Positions 274-9,529 of a stretch of DNA of 60,853 bases are shown here, in pieces. The notes beneath the pieces are model-generated. The model saw only the letters and a list, made by a program, of their open reading frames with translations. It did not search any database and was not told where the DNA came from. How positions within the stretch are numbered: the stretch's first letter is position 1; each line of letters opens with the position of its first letter. A program made the translations under genes and the position numbers. Source of the DNA: Leptolyngbya sp. 'hensonii' (lineage in GTDB: Bacteria > Cyanobacteriota > Cyanobacteriia > GCF-001939115); assembly GCF_001939115.1 (NCBI RefSeq), contig NZ_MQTZ01000011.1:10-60862 (forward strand), in the 5' to 3' direction.

Positions 274-610
274 GGATGCTGTTTTTACCTGCTCTGTGGA
301 TCGGGTTGCCCCTGGTCAAAACATGACAAACCTTGCAGCTAACATCTGCACAAATCAGAGGCTTGGATCAAAGGCTCAATTTAAATTCCAGTTTAGGGAG
401 TTATCCCCTGAAAAACGAGGGTCTAATTGCCTGAATCCTCTGGTCCTTTGGGACTAAGTGGCATCGTTCTCTGGGACCAGAAAGGGTAGGGGGGAAAGCA
501 GTCCTTCCGACTCAGTTAAGTTGGTCACAGCGATCCAGGTGAGGACAGGGGGGTCGCCCATAGGATGGGCATATCTCGCAAATCAAGCTTGTTATTCCCT
601 GGAGCATCAG
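274..610. other. Divergent intergenic region with a small hairpin
   Basis: This stretch separates the left-edge membrane protein (minus) from the Spy/CpxP-like gene (plus) and must hold both promoters. No convincing -35/-10 pair or coding frame was recognised. A perfect inverted repeat, GCCCAT-AGG-ATGGGC at 556-570, lies about 40 bases before the ATG at 611 and would sit in the plus-strand leader. Confidence 0.4.
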
Positions 611-1087
611 ATGAAACCCTTTTCCCTTCCTCTCTGGATGCCAGCTCTGCTGACCCTGCCGATCGCTAGCACTGTTGCCCTCGCCAACCCCTGCATGCCC
701 CCGGATAACCCTGGCAATCCCCCTGGAAATTTGCCCCCATCAGGAGGGAATCCATTACCCCCACCCTTGCAGCGCCTGAATCTGACTGCCGAGCAGCAGA
801 AAAAGATCCAAACCATCCTATCGGAGGAGCGCTCAGGAGCCGAAAGCCTGATGCAACAGTTGCGTCAGGCTGACGAAAAGATGAGATCGCTGCTGGCTGC
901 CAATGCCAGTGCGGATGAGCTGCGGAAGCAGAATCGAGAAGTCCAGCGGTTGCGCCAAGCCATGGATGAGCGTCGCTTTGAGGTCATGCTCAAGATGCGG
1001 GAGGTGCTGACACCAGAGCAGCGGGCCAAGCTGGCTGCCGATCGTCCCCCTGGCCCGCCCCAGCCCCCAGCCCCTCCGGCTCCATAG
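611..1087 (+). CDS. Spy/CpxP-like periplasmic protein (LTxxQ family)
   Basis: This protein of 158 residues has a signal peptide (about residues 1-25, ending near TVALA), a Pro/Gly-rich spacer, and then a helical domain with two LTxxQ-type motifs, LTAEQQKK and LTPEQRAK, that mark the Spy/CpxP family. The tail is again Pro-rich. Family members are periplasmic chaperones or stress sensors, often tied to envelope or metal stress two-component systems. The ATG at 611 is chosen because it directly precedes the signal peptide; the frame is open upstream but shows no protein-like sequence. The left-edge gene is divergent and may be the partner sensor (inference). A metal-binding role is not supported, because there is no His or Cys cluster. 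Confidence 0.75.
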   Translation: MKPFSLPLWMPALLTLPIASTVALANPCMPPDNPGNPPGNLPPSGGNPLPPPLQRLNLTAEQQKKIQTILSEERSGAESLMQQLRQADEKMRSLLAANASADELRKQNREVQRLRQAMDERRFEVMLKMREVLTPEQRAKLAADRPPGPPQPPAPPAP

Positions 1088-1218: not shown

Positions 1219-1500
1219 ATGAGAACACTTCTAGGACCGAATCAAACTGCCGTGACCGTTTTTAGTTCTCTGCAAGTCAAGGAAGATGGCTTTGCCTTCG
1301 ATCCGACCACAGGAGACAGTTACCTGTTGAATCCTACCGGACAGGAAGTCTTGCGCCTTTTGCAACAGGGCCACAGCCCCCACAAAATTGCGATAACTCT
1401 GGTGCAGACGCTTGGTGTGGCCCAGGGAATCGCTGAGCGCGATGTTACAGATTTTGTCCAACAGCTCACCCTCTTAGGGGTCATTGGAGTTAACCGATGA
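1219..1500 (+). CDS. PqqD-like peptide-binding protein
   Basis: A protein of 93 residues with the PqqD/RRE-like pattern: an N-terminal beta stretch (VKEDGFAFDPTTGDSYLLN), the conserved NPTGQEVLRLL turn-helix, then GHSPHKIAITL and a final Asp-Val-x-x-Phe-x-x-x-Leu helix. PqqD domains bind precursor or carrier peptides and hand them to modifying enzymes in RiPP-type pathways. Here no radical SAM enzyme or protease adjoins it. Its stop overlaps the ATG of the ATP-grasp gene (ATGA at 1497-1500), so the two are translationally coupled and the likely client is that ligase. No precursor peptide of obvious type was seen upstream (1088-1218). It is the first gene of the four-gene operon ending at 6068. 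Confidence 0.75.
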   Translation: MRTLLGPNQTAVTVFSSLQVKEDGFAFDPTTGDSYLLNPTGQEVLRLLQQGHSPHKIAITLVQTLGVAQGIAERDVTDFVQQLTLLGVIGVNR

Positions 1501-2534
1501 AACCCCTGACGATCGCCGTGACTGGTATTAACGCTGTGGATAATCCCGGTCCCGGGACCGGAGTTGCCCGCAGCCTGCGGGAAGCCCAATTGCCCATGCA
1601 AATCCTGGGATTGGCCTACGATGTGATGGAACCGGGTCTGTACATGGATTGGCTCTTCGATCGCCGCTTCATCATGCCCTATCCCTCGGCTGAACCTGAT
1701 CTATTGCTAGAACGGTTGGAGCAGATTCAACAGCAGGTCGGCCTCGACTGTGTGATTCCCAACTTTGATCTGGAACTACCCCTCTATATTCGCTGTGGTG
1801 AAGCGCTGCAGGCTATGGGCATCCACACCTATCTGCCCACCAAGGAACAGTTTTCCCTGCGGCATAAGGCTCGCCTTGTGGAAGCGGTGGCTGCTTTTGG
1901 GGGACATACCCCCCGGACCTTCACCGCCAGTTCGATCGGAGAACTGCGGGATGCAGCGGTGGAACTGGGGTTTCCCCTGATGATCAAGGGGCCATACTAC
2001 CAAGCTTATCGGGTGACAAACCAGGCAGAATTGCTACGCCATTTCCATGCCCTGGCGGCGGAATGGGGCTATCCCATCATCCTGCAGCAGATTGTCATCG
2101 GGACGGAACTGAACCTGGTGGGCGTGGGCGATGGGGCCGGTGGCCATCTGGGTCTGGTTGCCATTAAGAAGATGGGCACGACCGATCTGGGCAAGATCTG
2201 GAGCGGGGTGACGATCGACCATCCCGGCTTGCTGGCCACGGCTGAAGCCTTTCTGCGCCATACCCGCTGGCGAGGCCCCTTTGAACTGGAGTGCATTGCC
2301 GATCGGGACGGACGCATCGACCTGATTGAGATTAATCCCCGCTTCCCCGCCTGGACTTACTTTGCGACAGGGGTGGGGGTAAACCTGCCCGCCCGACTGG
2401 TGGGGGCTGCCTTGGGCCTGCCCCTGCCCCCCATCCCATCCTATGAAGCTGGGAAGTTTCTCATGCGCTACACCTACGAAATTGTGACGGATACGGCTCC
2501 TCTACAAACCCTCGTGACTCTGGGAGAGAGATAA
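1497..2534 (+). CDS. ATP-grasp ligase of unknown substrate (CarB/biotin-carboxylase-like)
   Basis: A protein of 345 residues. It opens with a nucleotide-binding-like N-terminus (TGINAVDNPGPGTGVARSL), then a preATP-grasp lobe, and an ATP-grasp core containing GFPLMIKGPYY (ATP-binding lysine strand) and LIEINPRFPAW, whose Glu and Asn are the usual Mg-ATP ligands. ATP-grasp enzymes activate a carboxylate as an acyl phosphate and join it to an amine or thiol. It lacks the tandem domains of carbamoyl-phosphate synthase and the BC-C domain of biotin carboxylase, so it is a stand-alone ligase. It overlaps the PqqD-like gene by 4 bases and sits one base before the PLP decarboxylase, which suggests that a carboxylate is ligated to an amine made by the next gene (inference). 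Confidence 0.8.
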   Translation: MKPLTIAVTGINAVDNPGPGTGVARSLREAQLPMQILGLAYDVMEPGLYMDWLFDRRFIMPYPSAEPDLLLERLEQIQQQVGLDCVIPNFDLELPLYIRCGEALQAMGIHTYLPTKEQFSLRHKARLVEAVAAFGGHTPRTFTASSIGELRDAAVELGFPLMIKGPYYQAYRVTNQAELLRHFHALAAEWGYPIILQQIVIGTELNLVGVGDGAGGHLGLVAIKKMGTTDLGKIWSGVTIDHPGLLATAEAFLRHTRWRGPFELECIADRDGRIDLIEINPRFPAWTYFATGVGVNLPARLVGAALGLPLPPIPSYEAGKFLMRYTYEIVTDTAPLQTLVTLGER

Positions 2535-2535
2535 G

Positions 2536-3909
2536 ATGCAAGCTTACGCCAAGCCAGTCATTCACAAGTTACACAGTGGCACGATGAACAAGTTCGCAGG
2601 GGCTGCTCCCCGGCAGCGTCGTGTCCGATCGGAAATTGCAGGGGTGCCGGTAGAGGAGCTGGTGCAGCGGTTTGGGTCGCCCCTGTTTGTTTACTCGGAA
2701 CGAACCCTGCGGCGACAGTTCCGCACGATTCGTAACGCCTTTGCCACCCGCTATCCCGAAGTTACCTTCGGCTGGTCCTACAAAACCAACTACCTGAAAG
2801 CCATCTGTGCCATTCTGCATCAGGAGGGGGCGATGGCTGAACTGGTTTCTAAGATGGAGTACGACAAGGCGAAGGTCCTGGGGGTTCCTGGCCAGCAAAT
2901 CATCTGGAATGGTCCCCATAAGCCCTTTGATGCCCTGGAAGCAGCGGTGCGGGATGGGGTGACGATCAACATCGATCACCTGGATGAGGTGGAGGATCTA
3001 GAGGCGATCGCAACCCGTCTGGGGCGGCCTCTCGAGGTGGGCATGCGCCTGAATCTGGATTCAGGCATTCAGCCTTGTTGGTCCCGCTTTGGTTTTAACC
3101 TGGAGTCGGGTCAGGCTATGGATGTGGTGCAGCGGTTAGTGGATGGGGGTAAATTGCGGCTGGTGGGGCTGCATTGCCACATTGGCACCTTCATCATGGA
3201 CCCCCAGGCTTATGCCCAGCAGGTAGAGAAGATGGTGCAGTTTGGCTATGACGTGGAAGCCCGTTGGGGCTGGCGGATGAATTATCTTGATATTGGTGGG
3301 GGCTTTCCCTCCCGCAGTCGCCTCAAGGGGGTCTACCATGCGGCGGATGTGGTGCTGCCCTCGATCGACGACTATGCCGATGCCATCTGTGATACCCTCT
3401 GGCGGACCCTGAAACCGGGTCACCGGCCCCGCCTGATCATTGAATCGGGCCGGGCGGTGATCGATGAGGCCGGGTCCTTGATTACCAGTATCTGTGGTAC
3501 GAAACGATTACCCAATGGCACACCGGCTTATGTCATGGATGCGGGTGTGAATCTCCTGTTTACGGCCTTTTGGTATCGCTTTGATATCGCTATGGCCCGC
3601 GCCATTCCCGGTCCCTGTGAGATTTCGGTCCTCTATGGTCCCCTCTGCATGAATATCGATGTGGTGGATGAGGGAATTTCCCTGCCGCCGCTTTCTCGGG
3701 GCGATCGGCTAGTGGTTTCAACGGTCGGGGCTTACAACAATACCCAGTGGCTCCAGTTCATTGAGTATCGGCCCAATGTGGTGCTGGTGACAGAGGCGGG
3801 TGAGGTGGAGCTGATCCGATCGGCAGAAGACCTGAGCGATCTGGATCGACGGGAGCATCTTCCCTCCCATCTGGCCACCCGATCGGGGATGGAGAGTCAG
3901 CCATGCTAG
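2536..3909 (+). CDS. PLP-dependent fold-III decarboxylase, LysA-like but divergent
   Basis: A protein of 457 residues, alanine-racemase fold type III decarboxylase. Lys83 in the SYKTN motif takes the place of the PLP lysine of LysA; HCHIGTF, DIGGGFPS and IIESGR follow the LysA order (PLP phosphate and substrate sites). The C-terminal motif of meso-diaminopimelate decarboxylases (CESGD) is here CMNID, and the GAY motif is followed by NNTQW. So the catalytic Cys and Asp survive while the residues that read the D-centre of diaminopimelate have changed. It is probably a decarboxylase for another amino acid rather than the housekeeping lysA. The ATG at 2536 lies one base after the ATP-grasp stop; Met17 (2584) is a possible alternative. 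It overlaps the next gene by 7 bases. Confidence 0.8.
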   Translation: MQAYAKPVIHKLHSGTMNKFAGAAPRQRRVRSEIAGVPVEELVQRFGSPLFVYSERTLRRQFRTIRNAFATRYPEVTFGWSYKTNYLKAICAILHQEGAMAELVSKMEYDKAKVLGVPGQQIIWNGPHKPFDALEAAVRDGVTINIDHLDEVEDLEAIATRLGRPLEVGMRLNLDSGIQPCWSRFGFNLESGQAMDVVQRLVDGGKLRLVGLHCHIGTFIMDPQAYAQQVEKMVQFGYDVEARWGWRMNYLDIGGGFPSRSRLKGVYHAADVVLPSIDDYADAICDTLWRTLKPGHRPRLIIESGRAVIDEAGSLITSICGTKRLPNGTPAYVMDAGVNLLFTAFWYRFDIAMARAIPGPCEISVLYGPLCMNIDVVDEGISLPPLSRGDRLVVSTVGAYNNTQWLQFIEYRPNVVLVTEAGEVELIRSAEDLSDLDRREHLPSHLATRSGMESQPC

Positions 3910-6068
3910 ATCTGCCGATCGGCGCGTCCTCCTCAGCTCACCCGCTCTCAGGGGCACAGAGGGGGGTGCCCCCCTCGAAACAGCGATCGGTTCGATCGAT
4001 CCTCCACCCCATTGTCCAACCCCTGGGAGCGTTGCTCCAGGCGGTTTGTGCAGCCACCTCCGAAATTCTCTTCCTGCGTGGGATTCTGCCTGGTGCGCTG
4101 CTCCTCTCGGCCATGCTGCTGCAGCCCTCTGTTCTGGCTATGGGGTTGGTTGGAGTCTTTGCTGCGGTTGCCTTTGCCCGCATCACCCAATTGGGGCAGA
4201 CCTATCTGGGGCAGGGGCCATTCTTATTTAATCCCCTGCTGGCCGGACTCGGGGTCGGCTATTTGTTCCAACTCAGTCCGGCGGCCCTGTTCCTGGCTGC
4301 TGGGGCTGGGGTGCTGGCCTTTCTGCTAACCTGGGTCCTGTCCCATGTGCTCCGGACCTTCTTCTACCTGCCGGTGCTGAGCCTGCCTTTTGTGGTGGTG
4401 AGTTGGGTCGTGCATCTGGCTGCCTATCGCTATGCCGGTCTCAAAGCTGCCGTAGTGCCGGTCTATGCCTATACCATCGGTTTGCCTCTCCCGATCGAAG
4501 GCTTTCTTCGCACCCTGGGGTTGATTTTCTTCCTGCCCAATGTTTGGGTGGGTATTGTGGTGGTGGCTCTCCTCCTAGTCAATTCCCGCATCCAGTTTCT
4601 CCTGGTGTTGCTGGGCTATGCCCTGGGAACGACTGTGCGTGGGATTCTCACCGGCACCTTTGCCTATGTCTACTATGATCCGGCAGCCCTGAACTTCATG
4701 CTGGTCGCCCTGGCGATCGGTGGCTTCTATCTCCTGCCCTCACCCCGCAGTTATCTTCTAGCCGGAATCAGCGTCGCTCTGGCTGCCATCGTCGGGGAGG
4801 CCATTAGCGTCTTTTGGGCAGCGGTGGCCCTGCCGGTGCATGCCCTACCCTACAATTTGGTGACGCTGTTGTTGCTGTATCTGCTGGGGTTGGCGGGGTC
4901 TCGCTCCCTGGCCCGTTATCCTCAGGCGTCTCCAGAAAAAACCCTGGACCATGAACTGACTATCCAGCGCCGGTATCAAGGGACGGGCCGCACCCTGATG
5001 GTGCCCTTCACCGGACGGTGGGTGACCTGGCAGGGCTTTGAGGGAGCCTGGACCCATCAGGGGCTGTGGCGCTATGCTTGTGATTTCCTGATTCGGGATG
5101 ATCAAGGGCAGACCCACCGGGATGTTGGATTGCAACTGACGGACTACTATGCCTTCCAGAAGCCGGTGCTGTCCCCGATACGAGGTTGGGTGGTGCGGGT
5201 AGTGAATGACCTGCCGGACTGCGCGATCGGAACGGTGGATCAGGCCCACAATTGGGGCAATGCGGTGGTGCTCTACGATGAACGCGGGTTCTATGTGGAA
5301 ATTTCCCACTTTGCCCAGCACAGTATTGTGGTCAAGGCTGCCGATCGGGTGGAGCCGGGGACCCTATTGGGGCGCTGTGGTAACTCTGGTTATTCTCCCC
5401 AACCCCATATTCATATCCAGGTGCAGCTCCAACCCGATATTGGAGCGGCCACGGTTCCGTTCAGCTTTGTTAATCTCCTGGTGGATGGCCAGTTCCAGAC
5501 AGAATCGATTCCTGCAGTGGAGTCGGTGCTGGAGCCAGTGCGACCTGATCTGGTGCTGGCCCAGGCTATGACGTTCCCGATCGACAGTCGTCTCTCCTTC
5601 TGCAAGATGCGTCGGGGCCAGGTGGTCGGGCGGTTGGAGGTGGTGGTCAAGATGGCGGTGGATGGCTCCTTTTATCTGGATTCCGGTAAAGCCAAACTGT
5701 TCTTTGGGCGGGACGATACCGTTTTGATGTTCCATCGCATGGAGGGAGAGGATCCCTGGTTGCGGCTCCTCTGGCTGGCTGTTCCCCGCCTGCCCCTCAT
5801 CCGGCAGGTGGGCCATGCCTGGCAGGACTATCTGCCCATCAGTACCGTGAGCGGTGGTTTCCCCTGTCTTCTGTATCAGTTCGCCAGCGCCTTCTGGCCC
5901 CAACTGGCCTCTGTTTCGTATCAGGGGTATTGGGAAACGAATGAGACCCTGACGGGCAGATTGCAATTGCCTGGGACTCGACAGACCCTGTCCACGTCTG
6001 TGATCTTTGCGTCTACTGGGGAATGGTTGAAGGTGGGGGTGGGCGATCTCGCCCTGATGTTGATTTAA
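3903..6068 (+). CDS. Urea-transporter-like membrane domain fused to an M23 peptidase domain
   Basis: A protein of 721 residues. After a basic tail, residues of about 45-345 form some ten hydrophobic segments in the style of the urea transporter (UT) family, with the GQGPFLFNPLLAGLGVGY stretch typical of that fold. A second part (about 370-560) is an M23/LytM-like module: RYACDF supplies the Asp, GWVVRVVND and GNAVVLY the beta core, and PHIHIQVQ the HxH metal motif. The first metal His is not in the usual HxxxD spacing, so activity is uncertain. The last 150 residues are beta-rich and unrecognised. The ATG overlaps the decarboxylase stop. A channel for a small amide or amine coupled to a wall- or peptide-cleaving domain is implied by the domains, not proven. 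Confidence 0.75.
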   Translation: MLDLPIGASSSAHPLSGAQRGVPPSKQRSVRSILHPIVQPLGALLQAVCAATSEILFLRGILPGALLLSAMLLQPSVLAMGLVGVFAAVAFARITQLGQTYLGQGPFLFNPLLAGLGVGYLFQLSPAALFLAAGAGVLAFLLTWVLSHVLRTFFYLPVLSLPFVVVSWVVHLAAYRYAGLKAAVVPVYAYTIGLPLPIEGFLRTLGLIFFLPNVWVGIVVVALLLVNSRIQFLLVLLGYALGTTVRGILTGTFAYVYYDPAALNFMLVALAIGGFYLLPSPRSYLLAGISVALAAIVGEAISVFWAAVALPVHALPYNLVTLLLLYLLGLAGSRSLARYPQASPEKTLDHELTIQRRYQGTGRTLMVPFTGRWVTWQGFEGAWTHQGLWRYACDFLIRDDQGQTHRDVGLQLTDYYAFQKPVLSPIRGWVVRVVNDLPDCAIGTVDQAHNWGNAVVLYDERGFYVEISHFAQHSIVVKAADRVEPGTLLGRCGNSGYSPQPHIHIQVQLQPDIGAATVPFSFVNLLVDGQFQTESIPAVESVLEPVRPDLVLAQAMTFPIDSRLSFCKMRRGQVVGRLEVVVKMAVDGSFYLDSGKAKLFFGRDDTVLMFHRMEGEDPWLRLLWLAVPRLPLIRQVGHAWQDYLPISTVSGGFPCLLYQFASAFWPQLASVSYQGYWETNETLTGRLQLPGTRQTLSTSVIFASTGEWLKVGVGDLALMLI

Positions 6069-8038: not shown

Positions 8039-9529
<1,491 letters not shown>

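Follow-up and report, generated by a model that had tools for sequence, protein, structure and literature searches.

A 60,853-nucleotide stretch of Leptolyngbya sp. 'hensonii' (contig NZ_MQTZ01000011.1; hereafter the window) encodes UT-M23, a protein in which a urea-transporter (UT) channel is fused to an M23/LytM-fold domain and a third, beta-rich domain. The common view of UT channels is that they conduct urea passively, and M23 domains are usually regarded as extracellular cell-wall enzymes. UT-M23 has altered pore residues and invariant active-site residues, and its gene is the last of a four-gene operon with which it co-occurs in cyanobacterial genomes. We tentatively read it as a membrane channel whose M23 and beta-barrel-like domains face the cytoplasm, possibly acting at the end of a short, conserved pathway. 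It is more doubtful whether UT-M23 would be a novel release-and-export unit, in which a passive channel is joined to a cytoplasmic metallopeptidase that frees the decarboxylated product of the operon. The other operon genes encode a ribosomally synthesised and post-translationally modified peptide (RiPP) recognition element (RRE), an ATP-grasp ligase and a decarboxylase. No paper on the UT-M23 fusion or its operon was found in open-access full text.

The UT-M23 protein

The N-terminal half matches the Pfam UT family at residues 46-327 with 159.7 bits against a cut-off of 25 (E 1.2e-46), covering positions 2-290 of the 292 in the profile and so both halves of the fold. By phmmer it matches Desulfovibrio dvUT in the PDB (3k3f, 7e-18), and dvUT is also retrieved by Foldseek (E 2e-8) from the UT half of a whole-chain model of low overall confidence. 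Pfam Peptidase_M23 matches residues 420-508 with 35.7 bits against a cut-off of 28.7 (E 1e-8), and phmmer matches the same half to TagE, ORF007 and lysostaphin. Modelled alone from 19 sequences, the M23 domain has a core predicted local distance difference test (pLDDT) score of about 88-95 and a poor N-terminal part. Foldseek aligns this model with LytM-fold structures, including lysostaphin at 2.0 Å over 91 columns. The initial annotation, made from the letters alone, had proposed a UT fold and a LytM fold in one chain, and the Pfam, PDB and Foldseek results agree with it. The RYACDF and PHIHIQVQ motifs are likewise present as it gave them. The third domain (about residues 530-716) and the operon were absent from that annotation.

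By sequence comparison, chance or a sequencing artefact can be excluded as the source of the fusion, because the same single-frame fusion is present in ten other loci with 59-71% identity. Invariant columns among the orthologs make up 48% of the M23 domain, 46% of the UT domain and 22% of the C-terminal domain. The M23 and UT regions are thus equally conserved, and the C-terminal domain evolves faster.

The third domain is beta-rich and fairly confident in the model (pLDDT about 75-90). It has no Pfam match, even at E 0.1, and its Foldseek matches to CRABP/FABP-like (calycin) structures are weak (E 0.13, Z at most about 5). A calycin or fatty-acid-binding barrel was considered as a name for this fold and set aside, as the likeness is too weak to assign one.

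The M23 active site

The residues H385, D394, H469, H502 and H504 are invariant in 11 of 11 orthologs; a full H-D-H metal site, accompanied by H469 and H502, is therefore likely. The first His stands at H-x8-D from the Asp, not at the classical HxxxD spacing. In separate M23 proteins (30-39% identity) from Thermus, haloarchaea, Thermomicrobium and Acaryochloris, the His precedes the Asp of a YAxD motif by about 9-12 residues. The local motif agrees with that of Acaryochloris (THQGRMEYAYD, compared with THQGLWRYACD in UT-M23). Since separate M23 proteins from several lineages share the long spacing, it is a trait of an M23 subfamily. This domain more likely cuts than merely binds, because the five active-site residues are invariant and the odd spacing is common to the subfamily. 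The unusual spacing had been noted correctly in the initial annotation; its further suggestion, that the domain binds rather than cuts, is not borne out by these observations.

The long-spacing M23 peptidases of Thermus (L065), Haladaptatus (L066) and Acaryochloris (L069) share with UT-M23 the H...YAxD(F/L) and HxH motifs and the surroundings of the active site. They are separate proteins, most with a few N-terminal membrane helices, whereas the M23 domain of UT-M23 is fused to a channel and predicted to be cytoplasmic. As an observation apart, haloarchaea (L066 and plasmid matches H2-H4 and H10), which are without peptidoglycan, carry apparently membrane-anchored M23 proteins with the active-site motif.

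Orientation in the membrane

The UT fold consists of two inverted halves with ten transmembrane (TM) helices in all (PMC10541013; PMC4357013), and its T5a-Pb loop is periplasmic (PMC4357013). The end of T5b should therefore be cytoplasmic. The charges agree with this orientation: averaged over 11 orthologs, the predicted inner segments contain 17.1 K+R and 5.6 D+E in 124 residues, and the predicted outer segments 1.8 K+R and 2.5 D+E in 64 residues. The N-terminus (6.9 K+R) and the linker that follows the final TM helix (6.2 K+R) are the most basic parts. Because the fold puts both termini inside and the positive charges agree, the cytoplasm is the most likely place of the M23 and beta domains, next to the three operon enzymes. 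The description of the M23 half as extracytoplasmic in the initial annotation is probably wrong.

Pore residues and substrate

Six pore positions differ between dvUT and UT-M23: Q24 corresponds to E54, T130 to S160, E187 to L207, L293 to H313, T294 to A314 and F297 to Y317. The six residues are fixed across the M23 clade, apart from one Met at 207. By comparison, 11 cyanobacterial proteins in which a UT domain is followed by EF-hands retain Q, Q, L and F at dvUT positions 24, 187, 293 and 297; their positions 130 and 294 are occupied by T or a different small residue. E54, L207, H313 and A314 are markers of the M23 clade, unlike the residues of all or most of these 11 proteins. The Sm site of dvUT (L84, T130, L247 and T294) is identical in UT-A2 and UT-B (PMC4357013). 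In the M23 clade the conserved Sm threonines and the polar So/Si residues are replaced by S160, A314, L207 and H313.

The re-tuned pore has an acid at its inner mouth and lacks both the polar residue on the outer side and the threonines of the Sm site, which makes urea an unlikely substrate. UT-M23 scores 82 bits on the NCBIfam urea-transporter equivalog, the cut-off of which is 275, and urease and UrtA are encoded on other contigs of the same genome. Canonical urea transport was set aside as the likely function on account of the pore changes, the operon content and the location of urease and UrtA elsewhere. An amine would be a reasonable guess for the substrate, and no more.

The four-gene operon

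The four genes overlap or almost touch (Table 1). The stop of the PqqD-like gene overlaps the start of the ATP-grasp gene, and the decarboxylase gene overlaps the start of the UT-M23 gene by 7 nucleotides. The order is PqqD-like, ATP-grasp, decarboxylase and UT-M23, with UT-M23 always last, and it is kept wherever the operon has not decayed and the contig reaches upstream of it; the PqqD-like, ligase and decarboxylase genes are present in 10 loci and the window. The PqqD-like protein matches Pfam PqqD (4e-10) and the NCBIfam lasso PqqD model (5e-12, under that model's cut-off), and its PDB relatives are TfuB1 and TbiB1.

The decarboxylase scores 216 bits against NCBIfam lysA, short of the cut-off of 297.9. 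Its nearest solved relative is the N-citrylornithine decarboxylase FslC, with 186 bits compared with 141 for the best LysA, and it has CMxxD like FslC where LysA has CExxD. A true LysA is encoded elsewhere in the genome (G000:C20). A role in lysine biosynthesis was rejected on the score below the lysA cut-off, the nearer kinship to FslC and the presence of a true LysA. The kinship to FslC, which acts on an N-acylated amino acid, counts for the pathway proposed below.

A 758-residue Streptomyces zaomyceticus plasmid protein (L089 7995-10271, annotated 'hypothetical') contains an ATP-grasp domain and a LysA-like decarboxylase in one chain, and this fusion links the two steps. The Streptomyces gene adjoins genes for a fatty acid desaturase and for a 195-residue protein without an assigned role. 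Haloarchaeal plasmid relatives of the decarboxylase lie in unrelated gene contexts.

Table 1. Features of the UT-M23 operon and protein, in window positions.
Feature	Position	Strand	Basis
Spy/LTXXQ-like (Metal_resist) protein, a frequent neighbour of the operon	458..1087	+	profile match; four distinct loci
PqqD-like (RRE) protein, 93 residues	1219..1500	+	Pfam, NCBIfam, PDB; conserved in operon
ATP-grasp ligase (carbamoyl-phosphate-synthase-like)	1497..2534	+	profile matches, genomic co-occurrence
Pyridoxal-phosphate decarboxylase, FslC/LysA-like	2536..3909	+	profiles, closest solved relative FslC
UT-M23 fusion gene	3903..6068	+	721 residues, ATG start, one frame; Pfam, PDB phmmer, orthologs
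UT domain, residues 46-330	4038..4892	+	Pfam PF03253, PDB dvUT, Foldseek
Re-tuned pore positions E54, S160, L207, H313, A314, Y317	4062..4853	+	mapping to dvUT; roles PMC4357013
Basic linker, residues 331-362, predicted cytoplasmic	4893..4988	+	charge counts
M23/LytM-fold domain, residues 363-524	4989..5474	+	Pfam, PDB, relatives, model, Foldseek
Predicted metal/active-site residues H385, D394, H469, H502, H504	5055..5414	+	invariant in 11/11 orthologs
C-terminal beta-rich domain, residues 530-716	5490..6050	+	model; weak calycin/FABP-like likeness, without Pfam match

Distribution in cyanobacteria

Contigs were scanned with patterns that fit cyanobacterial orthologs only, and the scan permits no inference on other phyla. 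It returned twelve loci, all cyanobacterial; ten hold the single-frame fusion, one of them cut by a contig end. The loci include Scytonema, Iningainema, a Nostocales strain, Pantanalinema, Scytolyngbya, Leptolyngbya and metagenome-assembled genomes. Domain databases may already list a UT and M23 architecture, also outside cyanobacteria.

Co-occurrence was assessed in 386 genomes spread evenly over Cyanobacteriota. A UT domain over the cut-off is present in 14 of them, and M23 tails, for which the initial annotation had suggested a survey of UT domains, are carried by three. The other eleven UT genes (11/11; L031-L041, L050 and L051) encode C-terminal EF-hands; no paper on this UT-EF-hand fusion in cyanobacteria was found. 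An ortholog of the ligase is present in exactly the three genomes that hold UT-M23. UT-M23 is therefore rare and patchy among cyanobacteria. Pairwise distances of the ligase, the decarboxylase and UT-M23 correlate (r 0.87-0.94), which shared genome ancestry alone could give.

In one other cyanobacterium (G450, L095 3605-4291) the UT-M23 gene is interrupted between its UT and M23 parts by an IS1-type transposase gene. In Brasilonema (L063, about 8900-9330) the M23 part is missing and the frame changes, and in Rhizonema (L064, 3843-4759) only a UT-M23 remnant is present; either could be an assembly fault. Among the plasmid matches listed there was no UT-M23 fusion, and only the M23 half was matched.

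Neighbouring genes

Two-component genes surround the operon in most loci, with regulator genes upstream. The Spy/LTXXQ-like gene lies near it in four distinct loci, the window included. A gene for an OprB-type 'iron uptake' porin is found downstream in five loci (e.g. L055 10409-11956). These neighbours hint, by their position only, at control of the operon by envelope or metal stress.

Proposed pathway and alternatives

From the operon and the domains of UT-M23 we infer a pathway, including its cytoplasmic side, its catalysis, the order of its steps, its product and its direction of transport. The ATP-grasp enzyme would attach an amino acid, or something similar, to a carrier or precursor that the PqqD-like protein presents, and the FslC/LysA-like enzyme would then decarboxylate the attached residue. 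By hydrolysis of the amide bond, the cytoplasmic M23 domain would set free a small product, an amine or an amide, which may leave the cell through the re-tuned UT pore. Of the two functions suggested in the initial annotation, that of releasing the cargo from a peptide fits the content of the operon.

Several points weigh against this pathway. The chief gap is that no peptide of 18-130 residues is convincingly conserved within 1.5 kb of the operon; a precursor may lie elsewhere, and the role given here to the PqqD-like protein is tentative. The whole-chain AlphaFold model, made with 11 orthologs, is poor (pLDDT 52). H385 sits in the low-confidence N-terminal part of the M23 model, and the meeting of the three ligands at one metal is therefore conjectural. 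More mildly, C492 is invariant and C440 nearly so, which would permit a disulfide outside the cell. We know of no characterised cytoplasmic M23 peptidase.

In the strongest rival, itself unlikely, the M23 domain would not cut but would sense a ligand on the cytoplasmic side and gate the UT channel, as the EF-hands of the other cyanobacterial UT proteins may do with calcium. All 11 other sampled cyanobacterial UT proteins have their EF-hand tail at the same place, a position that suits a regulatory module, and degenerate LytM domains such as those of EnvC and SpoIIQ are known as binders. Such domains usually lose their active-site residues, whereas all five are invariant in UT-M23. A periplasmic M23 half that acts on peptidoglycan or a periplasmic peptide is very unlikely. 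It would agree with the extracytoplasmic place of known M23/LytM domains, with the nearby Spy-like protein and two-component genes, and with relatives from Ensifer and L003 that look periplasmic by their TM charge pattern, as judged by eye. The even number of TM helices, the basic N-terminus and the basic linker after the last helix put the C-terminus inside.

Transport could also run inwards: UT-M23 would import a conjugate or small molecule from outside, and the cytoplasmic M23 domain would trim it on entry and feed the ligase and decarboxylase. UT channels are bidirectional, and the OprB-type porin downstream in five loci would suit uptake. The UT pore is narrow (about 2-3 Å, PMC10541013), and a conjugate of a size that requires a peptidase would not pass, which makes import quite unlikely. 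That UT-M23 simply transports urea, its tail being incidental, is highly improbable. The Pfam UT match is over its cut-off and the genome has a urease, but six pore positions are changed, the equivalog score is far short, and the operon is without urea genes, with urease on another contig.

Comparison with known systems

UT-M23 shares the UT fold and two signature loops with the UT/SLC14 channels (dvUT and UT-B) and the cyanobacterial UT-EF-hand proteins, and has, like the latter, an N-terminal UT domain with an extra C-terminal domain. It differs from them at the six pore positions (E, S, L, H, A and Y), and from the UT-EF-hand proteins in that M23 and beta domains replace the EF-hands and the gene sits in a biosynthetic operon.

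With the butirosin enzymes BtrI, BtrJ and BtrK, in which an amino acid is tethered and then decarboxylated, the operon has in common an ATP-grasp ligase together with a LysA-like decarboxylase; the likeness is one of working principle and not of membership. The small gene of the UT-M23 operon encodes a PqqD-like protein, not the acyl carrier protein of a BtrI/BtrJ/BtrK-type pathway. The operon decarboxylase is closer to FslC than to BtrK, which is mentioned in PMC2922099. With the lasso and PQQ RiPP systems (PqqD, TfuB1) the operon shares a small PqqD-fold (RRE) protein, whereas no precursor peptide, cyclase or radical SAM enzyme was seen in it. The C39 peptidase-containing ATP-binding cassette (ABC) exporters have a cytoplasmic peptidase domain in an exporter. 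Only this logic is shared, as UT-M23 has neither an ABC ATPase nor a C39 peptidase.

A conserved fusion of this kind, in which the pore is altered, the M23 domain probably cytoplasmic and the gene part of a biosynthetic operon, would broaden both the UT and the M23 family. It would also point to an undescribed cyanobacterial metabolite, and UT-M23 may both release and export the product of its pathway.

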